A DNA stretch of 52,332 nt, taken from assembly GCA_029935705.1 (NCBI GenBank), contig JAOZJU010000005.1:1-52332 (forward strand). Reading direction: 5' to 3'. Shown here piece by piece: positions 1 to 45,551 of the stretch. Position numbers and translations under genes: made by a program. The stretch is from Arcobacteraceae bacterium (GTDB lineage: Bacteria > Campylobacterota > Campylobacteria > Campylobacterales > Arcobacteraceae). The notes beneath the pieces were generated by a model, which saw only the letters and a program-made list of their open reading frames with translations, was not told the DNA's origin and searched no databases. Every line of letters starts with the position of its first letter. Position 1 is the first letter of the stretch.

Positions 1-147
1 ACTTGTTGTTTTGTGTCATATATCAATATATCTTGATTTAAGCATAGATATGGTAAAATGTCAAAAAAATAAGGAAAAGCAACAATTGGATGGATCCCTC
101 AAAACAATAAGCTCGCTAAACGATGAAACAAGATTAAAAATAGTTAG
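1..147 (+). repeat. Direct repeat, left copy (arsR promoter and 5' end)
   Basis: Bases 1-147 match 1562-1708 with a constant offset of 1561. Only a handful of substitutions are seen, mainly around 91-96, at the -10 box and at 136-139. The copy includes the operator-like palindrome at 22-37, a -10-like TAAAAT at 54-59, the ribosome binding site and the TTG start of arsR. Identity stops abruptly after 147. The left end cannot be judged because the window starts here, so the repeat may extend further upstream. Confidence 0.93.
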
Positions 148-1561: not shown

Positions 1562-1708
1562 ACTTGTTGTTTTGTGTCATATATCAATATATCTTGATTT
1601 AAGCATAGATATGGTATAATGTCAAAAAAATAAGGAAAAGCAACAATTGGATCAATTTCTCAAAACAATAAGCTCGTTAAACGATGAAACAAGATTGAAG
1701 ATAGTTAG
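1562..1708 (+). repeat. Direct repeat, right copy
   Basis: This is the partner of 1-147 and belongs to the intact arsR gene. The two copies bracket about 1.4 kb holding the Lcl-like gene, the palindromic element and the nuclease remnant. The arrangement fits a duplication or recombination event at the arsR promoter. Confidence 0.93.
1583..1620 (+). promoter_or_regulatory. arsR promoter with ArsR-type operator
   Basis: The near-palindrome 1583-1598 has half-sites ATCAA and TTGAT separated by six bases, a layout like known ArsR operators. It covers the expected -35 position of the -10 box TATAAT at 1615-1620. A repressor bound there would block RNA polymerase. This suggests autoregulation of the whole 1647-5789 operon, with release by arsenite or a related thiophilic metal. 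The site is seen directly; its use is inferred from the family. Confidence 0.7.
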
Positions 1709-1961
1709 GTTTATAAGCGAAAATGGCAAAGTTTGTGTGTGTGATATTGAAAACTCATTTGGTATGATTCAATCAAGAGCGTCAAGACACTTGAAGATAT
1801 TAAAAGAAGCAGGCTTTTTAAAAGTAGAAAGAGTTGGTCGTTGGGCATATTATAGCATAAGATCGCCATTGGATATTTTCAGGCAAGATATCTTAAAAGA
1901 GATAAGTTTTCTTGAACTTGATACTCCAAAACTTATACATAGTTGCAAAATGGAAAATTAG
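1647..1961 (+). CDS. arsR: ArsR/SmtB-family metalloid-responsive repressor
   Basis: This is a 104-residue winged-helix repressor. The N-terminal LNDETRLKIVRF segment, a recognition helix around SRASRHLKILKEAG and a wing around VGRWAYYSI are typical of the family. Cys30 and Cys32 in VCVCDIE occupy the position of the arsenite-binding ELCVCDL motif, and Cys100 near the C-terminus could be a third ligand. The TTG start is chosen because AAGGAAAAG lies seven bases upstream and the N-terminus aligns with the family. The stop touches the ATG of the permease gene, so the genes are co-transcribed. It probably represses its own operon through the palindrome at 1583-1598. Confidence 0.92.
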   Translation: MDQFLKTISSLNDETRLKIVRFISENGKVCVCDIENSFGMIQSRASRHLKILKEAGFLKVERVGRWAYYSIRSPLDIFRQDILKEISFLELDTPKLIHSCKMEN

Positions 1962-2975
1962 ATGCAAACTTTTACACTCTTTTTAGAAAATTTTTGGATT
2001 TTGACTCAAGATATGGCAATCTATATCATATTTGGTGTTTTGATTACTGGTGTTTTAAAGCAGATCATACCGACTGATTTTATCAAAAATCATTTAGGAC
2101 GAGATAACTTAGGTTCAGCAATAAAAGCATCTATTTTTGGGATACCATTGCCTCTTTGTAGTTGTAGTGTCATTCCATTTGCGACAAGTTTGAAAAAAGA
2201 GGGAGCAAGTAGCGGGTCTGTTCTTAGTTTTTTGATCTCCACTCCAATCACTGGAGCAGATAGTATATTGGCTACTTATGGGTTTTTTGGTTGGATATTT
2301 ACTATTTATAGAGTTGTAACCTCACTTATCATTGCTGTAGTTGCTGGAGTTTTGCAAAATTTATTTGCCAAAGTAGATGATATAGATGAAGACAAAGAGA
2401 TATCTTGCTGTGCCAATTCATCTTGTAGCGATAAAAAAACAAAAGAAAAATTTAGCCTAAAAGTGATGTTTGATTATGCTATAAATGATATCTTTAAAGA
2501 TTTTGCAAAACCACTTTTTTTTGGACTAATCTTAGGATCGCTTATCGCTACATTTATGCCACAAAATATTATGGAGCATCTAAATGAAAACAGGATGTTG
2601 GCATATATTTTGATATTGATATTTTCTATGCCGTTGTATATTTGTGCGACTGCTTCACTTCCAATAGCTGCTTCGCTTATTGCAGGTGGATTAAGTGGAG
2701 GGGCGGCTTTTATACTTCTAAGTGCTGGACCTGCAACAAATAGTGTGACTATGGGAGTTGTTTTGCAAACATTAGGCAAAAAAGCTTTGGTTATATATCT
2801 TGGGGTTATTGGAATATTTAGTTTGATATTTGGATATTTGTTGGATCTTTATTTTCCAAATCTTTTAAGTGGTATAATCATAAACGACAATGAAGAGTTT
2901 AGTATCGTTCATACAATAGCCTCTATTTTGATGCTTGGATTTATGATGAAATTTTTATTTTTAAGCAAAAGATGA
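1962..2975 (+). CDS. PF03773 (ArsP/SO_0444-like) metal or metalloid permease
   Basis: This 337-residue membrane protein has two sets of hydrophobic helices, the two-repeat plan of PF03773 permeases. The hallmark PLCSCSVIP (Cys66, Cys68) sits in the first half and a related YICATASLP in the second. A cytoplasmic-looking loop at about 140-165 is charged and contains Cys149, Cys150 and Cys155, which could capture metal. Known relatives export trivalent organoarsenicals (ArsP) or copper and zinc (SO_0444 group). Its place directly behind arsR and before arsC makes it the best candidate for the metalloid efflux pump, because no ArsB or Acr3 is encoded here. The substrate is inferred. ATG follows arsR without a gap, and the stop overlaps arsC by ATGA. 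Confidence 0.85.
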   Translation: MQTFTLFLENFWILTQDMAIYIIFGVLITGVLKQIIPTDFIKNHLGRDNLGSAIKASIFGIPLPLCSCSVIPFATSLKKEGASSGSVLSFLISTPITGADSILATYGFFGWIFTIYRVVTSLIIAVVAGVLQNLFAKVDDIDEDKEISCCANSSCSDKKTKEKFSLKVMFDYAINDIFKDFAKPLFFGLILGSLIATFMPQNIMEHLNENRMLAYILILIFSMPLYICATASLPIAASLIAGGLSGGAAFILLSAGPATNSVTMGVVLQTLGKKALVIYLGVIGIFSLIFGYLLDLYFPNLLSGIIINDNEEFSIVHTIASILMLGFMMKFLFLSKR

Positions 2976-3373
2976 GAAACAAAAAGGTATTAGTTTTGTG
3001 CACTGGCAATAGTTGCAGAAGTATCATAAGCGAAGCACTTATCAATGCCAAGCTTGATGGAGTGATTGCAAAAAGTAGCGGTGTAAAAGCAAGTGGCAAT
3101 ATAAACTCAAATGCAAAAAAGGTATTGATCTTAAATGGCATATGGGATGAAAAATATCACTCAAAAACTATTGATAAAATCATAGATGAAGATTTTGACC
3201 TGATTGTCACTGTTTGCGATGATGCAAAAGAGAGTTGCCCTACTTTTGCAAAACCAGTAAAAAAGATTCATATTGGTTTTGCAGATCCTAGTGGAAAAGA
3301 GTTTGATGCTTTTGTAGATACATATGAAAAGATTGAGAAGGTATTATTACCTGAAATAAAAAAGGCCTTTTGA
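2972..3373 (+). CDS. arsC: Arsenate reductase, thioredoxin-coupled (LMW-PTP fold)
   Basis: This 133-residue protein reduces arsenate to arsenite. The phosphatase-loop motif CTGNSCRS supplies nucleophile Cys10 and Cys15. Cys82 and Cys89 (VCDDAKESC) are at the same positions as the redox triad Cys10/Cys82/Cys89 of plasmid pI258 ArsC. The catalytic Asp is in GFADPSG. All residues needed for the thioredoxin-dependent cycle are therefore present. The start overlaps the permease stop (ATGA) and the stop overlaps the next permease start (TGATG), so translation is probably coupled. The mini-thioredoxin at 5547 may be a dedicated reductant; that is inference. Confidence 0.93.
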   Translation: MRNKKVLVLCTGNSCRSIISEALINAKLDGVIAKSSGVKASGNINSNAKKVLILNGIWDEKYHSKTIDKIIDEDFDLIVTVCDDAKESCPTFAKPVKKIHIGFADPSGKEFDAFVDTYEKIEKVLLPEIKKAF

Positions 3374-4317
3374 TGTGGAAAGAAGCGGTTGATTATCTAA
3401 CAGTAGATTATCTAGGACTAGAAGGTCGCATAAACGATACTATAAACTTTTTTATCTATGATAGTATCAAAATATGGTTTTTGTTGATCACTATCATATT
3501 TGCAGTTTCATATTTAAGAACTCATTTTAATACCCAAAAAGTAAGAGTCTATCTTCAAGGTAAATCAGAATTTACAGGAAATGTATTAGCTTCATTGTTT
3601 GGGATTATCACACCATTTTGTAGCTGTAGTGCGATACCTTTGTTTTTGGGTTTTATACAAGCTAGGATTCCACTTGGAGTTACATTTAGTTTTCTTATAT
3701 CAAGTCCTATGAACAATGAGATAGCCATAGCACTTCTATTTGGGCTTTTTGGTTGGAAAATAACTGCTATTTATATAGGGTTTGGTTTGCTTGTAGCGAT
3801 ATTTGGTGGATATTTTATAGGAAAAATGAATATGCAAAGATATATCCTAATCCCTGTGACACCTATGCAGGGCGAACTTGAAGATGTGCAGATAAAGCTT
3901 ACATCTAAACAAAGAGTCAAAGAGTCTTGGGATTATACAGCTGATATATTTTCTAAGATTTGGTTTTATGTTTTAATTGGAGTTGGTATTGGTGCTTTGA
4001 TACACGGATATGTTCCTGCTGATTTGATAGTGCAGTACGCAGGTGCAAACAACCCATTTGCACCACTTGTAGCAGTGCTCGCAGGGATTCCTATCTATTC
4101 AAATGCAGCAGGAGTGATGCCACTTATTGAGGTGCTGACATCAAAAGGTATGCTACTTGGAACTGCACTTAGTTTTATGATGGCAATTACAGCACTTAGT
4201 TTACCAGAAGCTATGATTTTAAAAAGAATATTAGATATCAGACTCATAGCTTTGTTTTTTACAATTGTAGGGTTTGCAATAGTTTGTATTGGTTATTTGT
4301 TTAACTTAATTTTATAA
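3373..4317 (+). CDS. Second PF03773 permease (ArsP-like)
   Basis: This is a 314-residue polytopic membrane protein, distinct from the first permease. PFCSCSAIPL with Cys83 and Cys85 is the family signature. The second half carries the matching GIPIYSNAAGVMPL block, and SSPMNNEIAIALLFG is also typical. It lacks the Cys-rich loop of the first permease. ArsP of Campylobacter jejuni exports trivalent organoarsenicals, and this gene may do so, or may share arsenite export with its neighbour. ATG at 3373 is preferred over the TTG one codon upstream because it gives the TGATG overlap with arsC. Its substrate cannot be told from sequence. Confidence 0.85.
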   Translation: MWKEAVDYLTVDYLGLEGRINDTINFFIYDSIKIWFLLITIIFAVSYLRTHFNTQKVRVYLQGKSEFTGNVLASLFGIITPFCSCSAIPLFLGFIQARIPLGVTFSFLISSPMNNEIAIALLFGLFGWKITAIYIGFGLLVAIFGGYFIGKMNMQRYILIPVTPMQGELEDVQIKLTSKQRVKESWDYTADIFSKIWFYVLIGVGIGALIHGYVPADLIVQYAGANNPFAPLVAVLAGIPIYSNAAGVMPLIEVLTSKGMLLGTALSFMMAITALSLPEAMILKRILDIRLIALFFTIVGFAIVCIGYLFNLIL

Positions 4318-4327
4318 GGAGACAAGC

Positions 4328-4585
4328 TTGAAAATAGAAAATTTAAAAGATAGTGATTTAGTATGTTATTGTATCCAGGTGAATAAAAAAACAATAGTAG
4401 ATTCAATACAAAAAGGATATACAACTTTACAAAAGATCAAAGAGAACACTAAAGCTTGCACAGGAAGTGAGTGTAAAGTCAAAAATCCATCACGAATATG
4501 TTGCTCAAAAGATATAAAAGAGCTTATAAAAATATACACACAATCAGAAGATAACTCATCTTGTGGTTGTTGTTGTACAAATTAG
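4328..4585 (+). CDS. BFD-like [2Fe-2S] protein with Cys-rich tail
   Basis: This is an 85-residue protein. Cys13-x-Cys15 and Cys44-x4-Cys49 are spaced like the [2Fe-2S] ligands of bacterioferritin-associated-ferredoxin domains. Beyond the domain there is a Cys58-Cys59 pair and a C-terminal tail with Cys79 and Cys81-83, unusual in simple BFD proteins and suited to binding a soft metal or metalloid. The TTG start is supported by AAGGAGA six bases upstream. It lies 10 bases after the second permease. A role as an electron carrier for arsenate reduction, or as a metallochaperone handing arsenite to a permease, is a guess from context. Confidence 0.75.
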   Translation: MKIENLKDSDLVCYCIQVNKKTIVDSIQKGYTTLQKIKENTKACTGSECKVKNPSRICCSKDIKELIKIYTQSEDNSSCGCCCTN

Positions 4586-4600
4586 AAAAAGGAAAAAAGA

Positions 4601-5515
4601 ATGAAAAAGATATTATTAGTCAGTTTTTTAGTAAGCACAAGCTTGTTTGCAAACATCTATGAGCTAAAACCTATAGATATTACAAAAAATATTAGATGTT
4701 TCATAGGAGATTTTAATCCACCAACGAAATCAAACAAAGGGTTTGTATCAAATGTTTGTTACATAGACAAAGGCGACAGCATTGTGGTCATAGAGCCAGG
4801 TCCTACATATAACTTTGCAAAAGAGTTAAATGAATATATCAAAAAGCATAATGGAAAAAAGGTCACACAAGTGATTGCTACAAACTTTCATGATGACAGA
4901 TATACTGGTGCTAGCTATTATAAACAAAACCATATTCCAATCATTGCTCACAAGACAATTGTAAAAGAGCTAGAGGAAAACCCAGATAAATTTACAAGAA
5001 TCCCAAGTGTTACGACAAAAGAGCAATATGCAAATTCAAAAGTTGTTCAACCAGATATCCTAACCGATGAGAGATATGTGATAAAAGGCTCTAAACTAAA
5101 TATTGAAGTATTAAAACTAAGTCCTGGATCAAATAGTGCTTCTGATATATCAGTATATGTGCCAAAAGAGGATTTTATATTTACTGGAAATACAGTATTC
5201 AATGGAAGGTTTATAAAGTATGGCAAATATAGCGATATTGACAATTGGATAAAAGCATTAGAAAAACTGCAAAGTATGAATATAAAATATGTACTTGGTG
5301 GTCATGGAAAAGAGTATGATAAAAATTCATACAAAAACAATCTTGAGTATCTAAACATATTAAAATCAAGTGTGAAAAAAGCTTATGAAAATAATATTGA
5401 CAGACAAGATATAAAAAAACATATCAAAGATGAAAAATTTAGCTTTTACAAACATTTTGATTCTTTGTCAATAAGCAATGCAAAAACTTATTATGACCAA
5501 TTACAATGGCAATAG
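4601..5515 (+). CDS. Exported metallo-beta-lactamase-fold protein with degenerate metal site
   Basis: This 304-residue protein has a signal peptide (residues 1-17, ending LFA). The fold is recognisable from the order of motifs: IVVIEPGP, the TNFHDDRYTGA loop at 94-104, SPGSNSASD at 174-182, IFTGNTVF and GGHGKEY (His235). In active family members the first loop reads HxHxDH; here it is Asn95-x-His97-x-Asp99-Arg100. The usual PGH histidine is absent, and the bridging Asp/Cys position is Asn197. Most zinc ligands are therefore lost, so it is probably not a normal hydrolase. It may bind another metal or act as a periplasmic binding or sensor protein. It is in-frame and intact within the arsenic operon. 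Confidence 0.75.
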   Translation: MKKILLVSFLVSTSLFANIYELKPIDITKNIRCFIGDFNPPTKSNKGFVSNVCYIDKGDSIVVIEPGPTYNFAKELNEYIKKHNGKKVTQVIATNFHDDRYTGASYYKQNHIPIIAHKTIVKELEENPDKFTRIPSVTTKEQYANSKVVQPDILTDERYVIKGSKLNIEVLKLSPGSNSASDISVYVPKEDFIFTGNTVFNGRFIKYGKYSDIDNWIKALEKLQSMNIKYVLGGHGKEYDKNSYKNNLEYLNILKSSVKKAYENNIDRQDIKKHIKDEKFSFYKHFDSLSISNAKTYYDQLQWQ

Positions 5516-5546
5516 CAAAATTTATAAAAAGAAAAAAGGAAAAAAT

Positions 5547-5789
5547 ATGAAAATAGAGATATTGGGCACTGGTTGTGCAAAATGTAAAGCACTTGAAAAC
5601 AATGTCAAAGAAGCATTGTCAAAAATTGGTGGGTTTCATAGTATCGAAAAAGTTGATGATATTGTAAAAATTATGGAGTATGAAGTTATGAGCACACCTG
5701 GATTGGTGATTGATTCAGTTGTAAAAAGTAGCGGCAAGCTTTTAAGTGTCGATGATATTGTAAATATAATTAACGAAAATAAGATATAG
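5547..5789 (+). CDS. Mini-thioredoxin (Thioredoxin_3 type)
   Basis: This is an 80-residue redox protein with the active site GCAKC (Cys10, Cys13) right after the first beta strand, and the cis-Pro segment STPGLVID at about 50-57, as in small archaeal-type thioredoxins. ATG at 5547 is chosen because AAGGA lies just upstream and the protein then begins at strand one; an upstream ATG in frame at 5478 lies inside the preceding gene. It is the last gene of the arsenic-type operon. The likely role is disulfide exchange, possibly re-reducing ArsC; that is inferred from context, since the chromosome also has trxA and trxB (44216-45551). Confidence 0.85.
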   Translation: MKIEILGTGCAKCKALENNVKEALSKIGGFHSIEKVDDIVKIMEYEVMSTPGLVIDSVVKSSGKLLSVDDIVNIINENKI

Positions 5790-44215: not shown

Positions 44216-45145
44216 TTAACTTAAATATGATATAGCCCCAATACCAGCAATCGCACCATCTGATGCCGCACAAACTACCTGTTTGGGTGCATCTATTCGA
44301 AGATCACCACAAGCAAAAAGTCCTGGAACTGATGTTTGCATCTTTAGATCTACTATCACTTCACCACTGCTATTTGTATCACACAAAAAGCTACCATTTT
44401 CTTGTAAAAGTGGAGTATTTAGCACATCTCTACCTACAAAAATAAACACACCTCCGAGTTTTAGCTCTTGAAGTTTATCTGTTTGGTTGTTTTTTATATT
44501 TACTTGTGTGACACCATTATTGTCGCCTATTATCTCATCTACAACGGTTTGAAAATATATTTTTATATTTTCCAATGCCTGCACTCGCTTCACTGTTGTT
44601 GGCGATGCTCGAAACTTATCTCCTCTATATGTAAGATGAACCACTTTACATATATGGCTTAGATGAATTGCTTCTTCAAGGGCAGTATCGCCACCACCTA
44701 CTACTACTACCTCTTGATTTTTATAAAAAAACCCATCACAAGTAGCACAAGTGCTTACACCTTTGCCAAAAAACTTCTCTTCACCTTTTATGCCAGCTTT
44801 TTTTGGTTTTGAACCTGTAGCCATGATCACTGTTTTTGCTTCTATTTCATCGCCATTGGCAAGTTTTATCGTAAAAATTTTGTTTGATTTAGTAATATTT
44901 GTAACTTCGTTCATACTATGTTTAAGACCGAAAGCTTTTGATTGTTCTGGCCAGTTGCTCATAAGCTCCATACCAGATACTATCTCTTTTTGACCTGGAT
45001 AATTCTCTATCTCACTACTTTGAGTGATTTGACCTCCTGGTAACCCAAGCTCATACATAACCACATCTTTAAGTCCACCTCTTGTGGCATAAAGTCCTGC
45101 GGTCATTCCTGCTGGTCCGCCACCAACTATTGCTAAATCCAACAT
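44216..45145 (-). CDS. trxB: Thioredoxin reductase
   Basis: This 309-residue flavoenzyme transfers electrons from NADPH to thioredoxin. FAD site AIVGGGPAGMTAGLYATRGG, redox pair CATCDG near 134, NADPH site VVVGGGDTALEEAIHL and the final GLFACGDLRIDAPKQVVCAASDGA are canonical. ATG at 45145 is chosen after AAAGGAAAG. It heads the trxB-bamD-lon-rhomboid operon. It also supports the ArsC cycle if that uses thioredoxin. Confidence 0.96.
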   Translation of the reverse strand: MLDLAIVGGGPAGMTAGLYATRGGLKDVVMYELGLPGGQITQSSEIENYPGQKEIVSGMELMSNWPEQSKAFGLKHSMNEVTNITKSNKIFTIKLANGDEIEAKTVIMATGSKPKKAGIKGEEKFFGKGVSTCATCDGFFYKNQEVVVVGGGDTALEEAIHLSHICKVVHLTYRGDKFRASPTTVKRVQALENIKIYFQTVVDEIIGDNNGVTQVNIKNNQTDKLQELKLGGVFIFVGRDVLNTPLLQENGSFLCDTNSSGEVIVDLKMQTSVPGLFACGDLRIDAPKQVVCAASDGAIAGIGAISYLS

Positions 45146-45174
45146 ATCTTTCCTTTGAAACAATAAAAACAACA

Positions 45175-45208
45175 CAAGATGACAAAAAGATTAGTTTTTA
45201 TCATCTTG
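45175..45208 (-). terminator. trxA intrinsic terminator
   Basis: A 14-base stem (with one G-T pair) runs CAAGATGACAAAAA (45175-45188) against TTTTTATCATCTTG (45195-45208) with a six-base loop. On the minus strand it is followed by a T-rich tract. It separates trxA from trxB, so the two are probably transcribed separately. Confidence 0.8.
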
Positions 45209-45233
45209 ATCTATTGTGTTTGTATAAACTATT

Positions 45234-45551
45234 TTATAAAAGTGAGTTTATTTTATCAGCAAGTGCCTCTTTTGAAGAAGCTCCAATTTGTTCATCAACT
45301 TTTTCGCCATCTTTCATAAAAATGATAGTTGGTATACTTCGAACACCAAATTTTACAGCAAGGTCTTGTTGTTCATCTGTATTTACTTTACAGATATTTG
45401 CTTTGCCATCAAAATCTACAGCAAGCTCATCTATCACTGGGGCTATCATCCTACATGGACCACACCAAGGTGCCCAAAAATCTACCAAAGAGATGCCATT
45501 GTTGGTTATCGCTTCAAAGTTGTCGTTTGTAAGTTCTATATATTTACTCAT
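45234..45551 (-). CDS. trxA: Thioredoxin
   Basis: This is a 105-residue standard thioredoxin: LVDFWAPWCGPCRMIAPV active site (Cys33/Cys36 region), KVNTDEQQDLAVKFGVRSIPTIIFMKDG with the cis-Pro, and a terminal helix. It is the main cytosolic disulfide reductant. It is divergent from the hydrogenase operon. Confidence 0.97.
   Translation of the reverse strand: MSKYIELTNDNFEAITNNGISLVDFWAPWCGPCRMIAPVIDELAVDFDGKANICKVNTDEQQDLAVKFGVRSIPTIIFMKDGEKVDEQIGASSKEALADKINSLL

Follow-up and report, generated by a model that had tools for sequence, protein, structure and literature searches.

The window analysed here is an entire contig of 52,332 nucleotides (nt) from the draft genome GCA_029935705.1 of an Arcobacteraceae bacterium (1.28 Mb, 78 contigs, 99.6% complete). 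It carries a seven-gene arsenic resistance (ars) locus in which a permease of the SO_0444 type lies between arsR and arsC and in which the pumps ArsB and Acr3 are missing. With moderate confidence, we read this locus from its sequence as an As(III)-inducible operon that leads from arsenate reduction to efflux, the SO_0444-clade permease being the putative arsenite exporter and a BFD-like [2Fe-2S] protein (BFD) the putative partner of ArsC. In relatives, these three proteins are encoded as a single polypeptide.

ArsB and Acr3 are regarded as the main arsenite efflux pumps of prokaryotes. The preliminary description of this DNA had noted that both were absent, and the absence extends beyond the window to the whole genome assembly. 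Profile searches for ArsB (PF02040), Acr3 (TIGR00832) and aquaporins (MIP, PF00230) gave zero matches in the entire assembly and did match the positive-control genomes; ArsK, ArsJ and other exporters were not searched for. ArsB is present in 86 of the 104 genomes of the host family and in none of the four of its own genus (our genome and three others), and the three others also gave no comparable intact match to the SO_0444 permease or to the second permease of the locus (permease2). The complete and independent genome G112 carries arsR-SO0444-arsC (locus L123) with no match for ArsB, Acr3 or MIP, and thus it repeats the situation of the window.

The seven open reading frames (ORFs) are intact, lie on the forward strand between 1647 and 5789 and abut, overlap or leave gaps of at most 31 nt. 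Such tight packing on a shared strand fits one operon behind the predicted ArsR operator. Hidden Markov model (HMM) scans (Pfam, NCBIfam) named the families of all seven ORFs, and since families, ORFs and ArsC cysteines agree, the gene description given earlier is correct. The unit had been placed at 1583-5789; its content stands, but its start has to be moved, as the operator begins at 1579. The features are as follows.

1..147, forward strand: 95% copy of 1562-1708 with the operator and a truncated arsR; a remnant or an assembly repeat that opens the contig
1579..1594, forward strand: predicted ArsR operator ATCAA-N6-TTGAT, a 16-mer palindrome
1614-1619, forward strand: sigma-70-like -10 box TATAAT, 3' of the operator palindrome
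1647..1961, forward strand: arsR, ArsR/SmtB repressor with TTG start and C30-V-C32 metal site (HTH_5; NF033788 82.6 bits, cut-off 55)
1962..2975, forward strand: SO_0444-family permease of the ars-linked clade (PF03773; NF033936 337.5 bits, cut-off 300; tree; cysteine positions)
2972..3373, forward strand: arsC, thioredoxin-type arsenate reductase with C10, C15, C82 and C89 (LMWPc and ArsC models; PDB relatives)
3373..4317, forward strand: permease2, second PF03773 permease (229.5 bits), of the subtype that accompanies ArsE-type thioredoxins
4328..4585, forward strand: BFD-like [2Fe-2S] protein (PF04324 27.4 bits, cut-off 26; PDB 2hu9; alignment to ArsC-fused BFD domains)
4601..5515, forward strand: predicted exported metallo-beta-lactamase (MBL)-fold protein with degenerate zinc site (N95, H97, D99, R100, N178, N197, H235; PF00753; alignment; AlphaFold2 model)
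5547..5789, forward strand: mini-thioredoxin of the ArsE/MTH895 family, C10-A-K-C13 (PF13192; TIGR00412 96.4 bits, cut-off 62)

The SO_0444-type permease and its natural fusions

The first permease scored above the cut-off of the SO_0444 Cu/Zn efflux family. It carries a transmembrane C66-S-C68 motif in a hydrophobic segment and a CC-x4-C loop (positions 149, 150, 155). In a scan of named genomes, the closest homologues (61-73% identity) came from Campylobacterales, Sulfurovum and 'Helicobacteraceae' metagenome-assembled genomes (MAGs), and most of them were found in arsR-SO0444-arsC or SO0444-arsC-arsB operons or as a fusion (L115, L117-L120); the operon of L123 is the same as that of L120. 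In a maximum-likelihood tree of 66 rows, the window permease, seven ars-linked homologues and one unlinked homologue (L116) formed a nine-row clade with a support of 100/99, and other SO_0444 permeases fell outside it. Eight of the nine members of this clade are linked to ars genes. The window permease is the likeliest substitute for the missing ArsB or Acr3. As(III) would be exported by the permease, and its C-x-C motif and CC-x4-C loop may offer thiolate ligands.

A single ORF comprising SO_0444 permease, ArsC, BFD and a domain of about 80 residues (X) was found in two Sulfurovum MAGs (L117, L118) and in the genomes G584 (L149) and G578 (L153), which together represent three species; L149 is identical to L117 over the compared part. 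The L117 fusion consists of 684 amino acids, with ArsC starting at 393, the first BFD cluster cysteine at 536 and X at about 602. Five further genomes encode ArsC-BFD-X without the permease (L157, L160-L163), mostly adjoining arsR or arsB, and G049 encodes ArsC-X without BFD (L049:8532-9194) directly 5' of an ars-type MBL gene. All fusions retain the four ArsC cysteines, and those with BFD retain the C-Y-C...C-x4-C ligands and the vicinal CC. Since ArsC and BFD of the window align with the fusions at 52-62% identity, they represent the unfused version; no X was found in the window. BFD, ArsC and the SO_0444 permease had been proposed to be coupled, and because they form one polypeptide in Sulfurovum-type relatives, we consider this coupling real. 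Where a permease is fused with ArsC and an iron-sulfur protein, the product of reduction may be passed directly on to export, and BFD would most likely serve both partners as thiol/Fe-S chaperone or as electron donor.

BFD of the window carries the [2Fe-2S] ligand pattern of PF04324 (C-x-C...C-x4-C; cysteines 13, 15, 44 and 49), an invariant C58-C59 pair and a cysteine-rich tail (C79, C81-C83; CGCCC). This BFD type was detected in 21 of 399 surveyed genomes of the order (E below 1e-8), and most strong matches lie in an ars context. As a free gene it stands beside permease2 in L154, L155 and L158 and near permease2 and thioredoxin in L164, as in the window.

Domain X is present in L119, L120, L123, L157 and L160-L163 and at the C-terminus of L117, L118, L149 and L153; in L119 and L120 it is a free gene 5' of arsR. 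Pfam gave no match to it and NCBIfam none close to a cut-off, and its N-C-x4-C-x-C-M motif is invariant across the aligned X domains. We regard it from this motif as a candidate As(III)-binding module. A structural model of ArsC-BFD-X (predicted local distance difference test, pLDDT, 88) yielded only ArsC and low-molecular-weight phosphatases among the best 50 PDB matches listed, and none of these for X. An ArsD-like nature of X or BFD was considered as well, as ArsC-BFD-X resembled plasmid ArsC plus ArsD. That alignment spans two annotated genes, arsC and then arsD, and the likeness is therefore most likely an extension artefact.

Several observations weigh against arsenite export by the SO_0444-type permease. 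Within the clade, L116 lies apart from ars genes, and the assembly is a draft whose contig begins inside the arsR-region repeat. ArsB adjoins the SO0444-arsC operons or fusions in L115, L117, L119, L149 and L153, and with ArsB next door in several relatives the permease need not replace it. Moreover, the permease might be a Cu(I), Zn or Cd exporter that is co-regulated with ars, with BFD as CopZ-like copper chaperone and with arsenite leaving via permease2 or diffusing out as As(OH)3. This alternative appears unlikely to us, but it has evidence on its side: the sole PDB match of BFD is 2hu9, which represents the N-terminal [2Fe-2S] domain of CopZ from Archaeoglobus, and NF033936 is annotated as Cu/Zn efflux. 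At three loci of the host family (L100:5639-7859, L101:7278-10749, L102:120-3591), SO_0444 permeases adjoin an ArsR-type regulator with BFD nearby and without arsC, which is probably a metal-efflux version of the SO_0444/BFD pairing. In Nitratiruptor, an SO_0444 member responds to Cd and Cu, and a separate permease-thioredoxin-ArsC cluster is likewise induced by both metals (PMC10092412), so that metal cross-talk is real. What speaks for arsenic instead is that the ars-linked permeases form a clade of their own and that they occur covalently fused to a complete arsenate reductase. BFD remained below the cut-offs of the CopZ-type models (NF045877, 31.0 vs 190 bits; NF047645, 28.1 vs 100 bits), and the ArsC-BFD fusions that lack a permease weaken the idea of a mere copper chaperone for the SO_0444 permease.

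We also observed, next to transporter-like genes in a genome of the same genus (G037), an SO_0444-type gene that is split between two frames which overlap (L098:7110-8134); this reflects a frameshift or a sequencing error.

A wider proposal, to which we give somewhat less than an even chance, is that the ars-linked SO_0444 clade constitutes a third, hitherto unrecognised family of arsenite exporters in Campylobacterota, in which a conveyor from ArsC via BFD (and X in the fused forms) to the permease would pass nascent As(III) straight to the pump and would need neither ArsB nor Acr3. If this is true, a widespread family annotated as Cu/Zn efflux replaces ArsB and Acr3, and the arsenic-resistance annotation of genomes and metagenomes would change, above all at sulfidic vents, which are rich in Campylobacterota. 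The permease-ArsC-[2Fe-2S] fusions also make it testable whether one physical unit carries out reduction and export and whether an Fe-S protein takes part in arsenate detoxification.

Regulation, arsenate reduction and the ars locus of the host family

The perfect-arm palindrome ATCAATATATCTTGAT at 1579-1594 lies directly 5' of the TATAAT box. An identical or nearly identical palindrome stands 5' of arsR in 16 further loci, two of which are the fusion operons L117 and L118; it was not found in L119, L120, L157 and L163, where another gene stands directly 5' of arsR. ArsR itself scored above the NF033788 cut-off. Because of the conserved palindrome and C30-V-C32, an As(III)-type derepression is likely: ArsR would occupy the palindrome and be released when As(III) binds C30/C32. 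A generic promoter and terminator scan of the DNA gave no excess of sites over shuffled sequences and no terminator. The direct repeat at the contig start holds a second ars operator and the first ~20 arsR codons before it diverges, and it is either a remnant duplication or an assembly repeat.

The complete Cys10/Cys82/Cys89 ArsC that had been reported together with ArsR was borne out, as ArsR was, by HMM and residue check, and C15 is present in addition. The nearest solved relatives in the PDB are the enzymes of S. aureus pI258 (best) and B. subtilis. The window ArsC scored below the curated NCBIfam ArsC cut-offs and is therefore a divergent member. It would reduce As(V) with C10, C82 and C89, and its disulfide would be reset by the TIGR00412 thioredoxin and/or by the general thioredoxin of the cell. 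Judged from the translations, apparent genes of a general thioredoxin reductase and thioredoxin are located 40 kb away in the window (44216-45551), and with such a system at hand ArsC need not rely on the mini-thioredoxin of the operon.

The order of the ars locus in relatives is, with variations, arsR-(GGACT)-arsB-arsC-(mbl)-permease2-trx, and a family search detected ArsB within 5 kb of permease2 in 50 of 52 scored permease2 loci. Judged from these loci, arsR-arsC-permease2-thioredoxin is the ordinary ars set of the host family. In the window, the SO_0444-type permease holds the place of ArsB between arsR and arsC, and a BFD gene is added after permease2. This arrangement is foreign to the family, since none of its 62 SO_0444 matches lies within 5 kb of ArsB. 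The seven families had been expected to co-occur as a conserved unit. When the survey was run, no second copy of the exact set turned up among the loci read in relatives and the family core proved to contain ArsB, so that we rejected the idea of one conserved seven-gene operon. The sub-modules of the operon each recur in other genomes. With homologues of 45-84% identity in conserved ars loci, the locus lies far beyond chance.

A gene set without a second copy might also be a decaying or freshly shuffled patchwork, which has lost ArsB and is no longer effective against arsenic. The truncated second arsR with which the contig opens, the small genome and the three same-genus genomes without ArsB or intact permease matches are in line with such decay. 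However, none of the seven frames is broken, the genes are tightly coupled, every catalytic cysteine is retained and distant relatives share exactly the same operator. We consider decay very improbable.

Permease2, mini-thioredoxin and the MBL-fold protein

Permease2 belongs to PF03773, and the same gene is found in the ars loci of the family and in plasmid ars regions. The thioredoxin exceeded the TIGR00412 cut-off and carries C10/C13 of the ArsE/MTH895 family; its start is most likely at 5547, as an alternative longer ORF from 5478 runs into the MBL gene. A paper of 2010 (PMC2963123) already reported small thioredoxin-like proteins and ArsP-type permeases as members of ars operons, and the permease2-thioredoxin pair is a known ars accessory module. 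The preliminary description had counted this pair as part of a route beyond standard ars operons. For the pair this does not hold; the coupling of BFD, ArsC and SO_0444 permease (fused in relatives) and the conserved degenerate MBL protein are supported.

One may still ask whether permease2, with the thioredoxin, is the exporter of arsenite or of organo- or thio-arsenicals and the SO_0444 permease only accessory. The pair is the most widespread one in ars loci, and plasmids of alphaproteobacteria carry it at the head of cassettes of the form ArsR-permease-Trx-(rhodanese or MBL). As cited in PMC6205960, the PF03773 member ArsP of C. jejuni exports methylarsenite; inorganic arsenite was not exported by ArsP (PMC6205960). 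In addition, ArsB adjoins permease2 in nearly all family loci, plasmid ars regions likewise contain ArsB or Acr3, and G112 has arsR-SO0444-arsC without an adjacent permease2. Since permease2 almost always coexists with ArsB or Acr3, it is not a normal substitute for them, and we rate its role as the arsenite exporter as improbable, slightly more so than the copper, zinc or cadmium alternative. Under the favoured assignment of arsenite export to the SO_0444-clade permease, permease2 and thioredoxin are the usual accessory pair and may carry a second species, such as a methyl- or thio-arsenical.

The MBL-fold protein had been called a degenerate pseudoenzyme in an ars context, and the comparison with its relatives agrees with this. 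In 17 of the 18 other loci that encode a homologue (45-67% identity), ars genes are its neighbours. Throughout this ars clade, four of the six zinc ligands are replaced (N95, R100, N178 and N197 in the window) and H97, D99 and H235 are kept, so that the H-x-H-x-D-H motif and distal ligands of a catalytic MBL hydrolase are not complete. Five aligned paralogues (31-34% identity) retain H-x-H-x-D-H and the distal His and Asp, and none of seven inspected paralogue loci had ars neighbours. Loss of the dinuclear site is well supported by these alignments, and one zinc might still bind. An AlphaFold2 model (pLDDT 92) displayed a clean MBL fold with PDB MBL matches and an N-terminal signal-like helix. 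We suggest a periplasmic, probably non-hydrolytic binding protein.

On a Pseudosulfitobacter plasmid, the cassette arsR-permease2-thioredoxin-MBL-OsmC-CDF was observed (L171:4561-8372). Its SoxH-like MBL gene, with a differently damaged site, lies 3' of permease2 and thioredoxin, in the place where a rhodanese gene follows in NT-25, Comamonas and R. capsulatus. From this exchange of MBL and rhodanese, one may speculate about a sulfur-related role.

Comparison with known systems

In the open-access papers searched, we found no description of an SO_0444-ArsC-[2Fe-2S] fusion, of an ars operon whose sole pumps are PF03773 permeases in a genome without ArsB and Acr3, or of a degenerate MBL protein as ars-locus component.

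With canonical ars operons (arsR-arsB-arsC, arsR-acr3-arsC) the window shares the CVC site of ArsR and its operator, a thioredoxin-type ArsC and the linkage of arsR and arsC. It differs in the lack of ArsB and Acr3, in the SO_0444-type permease between arsR and arsC and in the extra BFD and MBL genes. Small thioredoxin-like proteins and ArsP-type permeases are shared with ars operons described before, whereas BFD, degenerate MBL and SO_0444 permease were not described there. The SO_0444 Cu/Zn efflux transporters (NF033936) have the score above the cut-off, the intramembrane C-x-C and the cysteine-rich loop in common with the window permease, which in contrast belongs to a separate ars-linked clade and is physically linked to ArsC, with which it forms one protein in relatives.

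CopZ-type [2Fe-2S] chaperones (2hu9, NF045877, NF047645) contain the same C-x-C...C-x4-C module, which in the fusions is also followed by a second cysteine domain. BFD, however, stays below their cut-offs and is linked in close relatives to ArsC and not to copper genes. The MBL protein and its paralogues share full-length similarity and a Sec-type signal with the SoxH-related quinoprotein relay proteins, but the window protein scored below the cut-offs (TIGR04558, 114.0 vs 300 bits; TIGR04559, 120.9 vs 280 bits) and its ars-linked clade has lost the ligands at 95, 100, 178 and 197.

Acr3-ArsC fusions occur in mycobacteria. Aquaglyceroporin-ArsC fusions are known as well (Wu et al. 2010, as cited in PMC6205960). 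Like these, the fusions of the relatives join an arsenate reductase covalently to an efflux protein or channel, but their transporter is of the SO_0444 type and they add the [2Fe-2S] BFD and the undescribed cysteine domain X, whereas the genes of the window are not fused.

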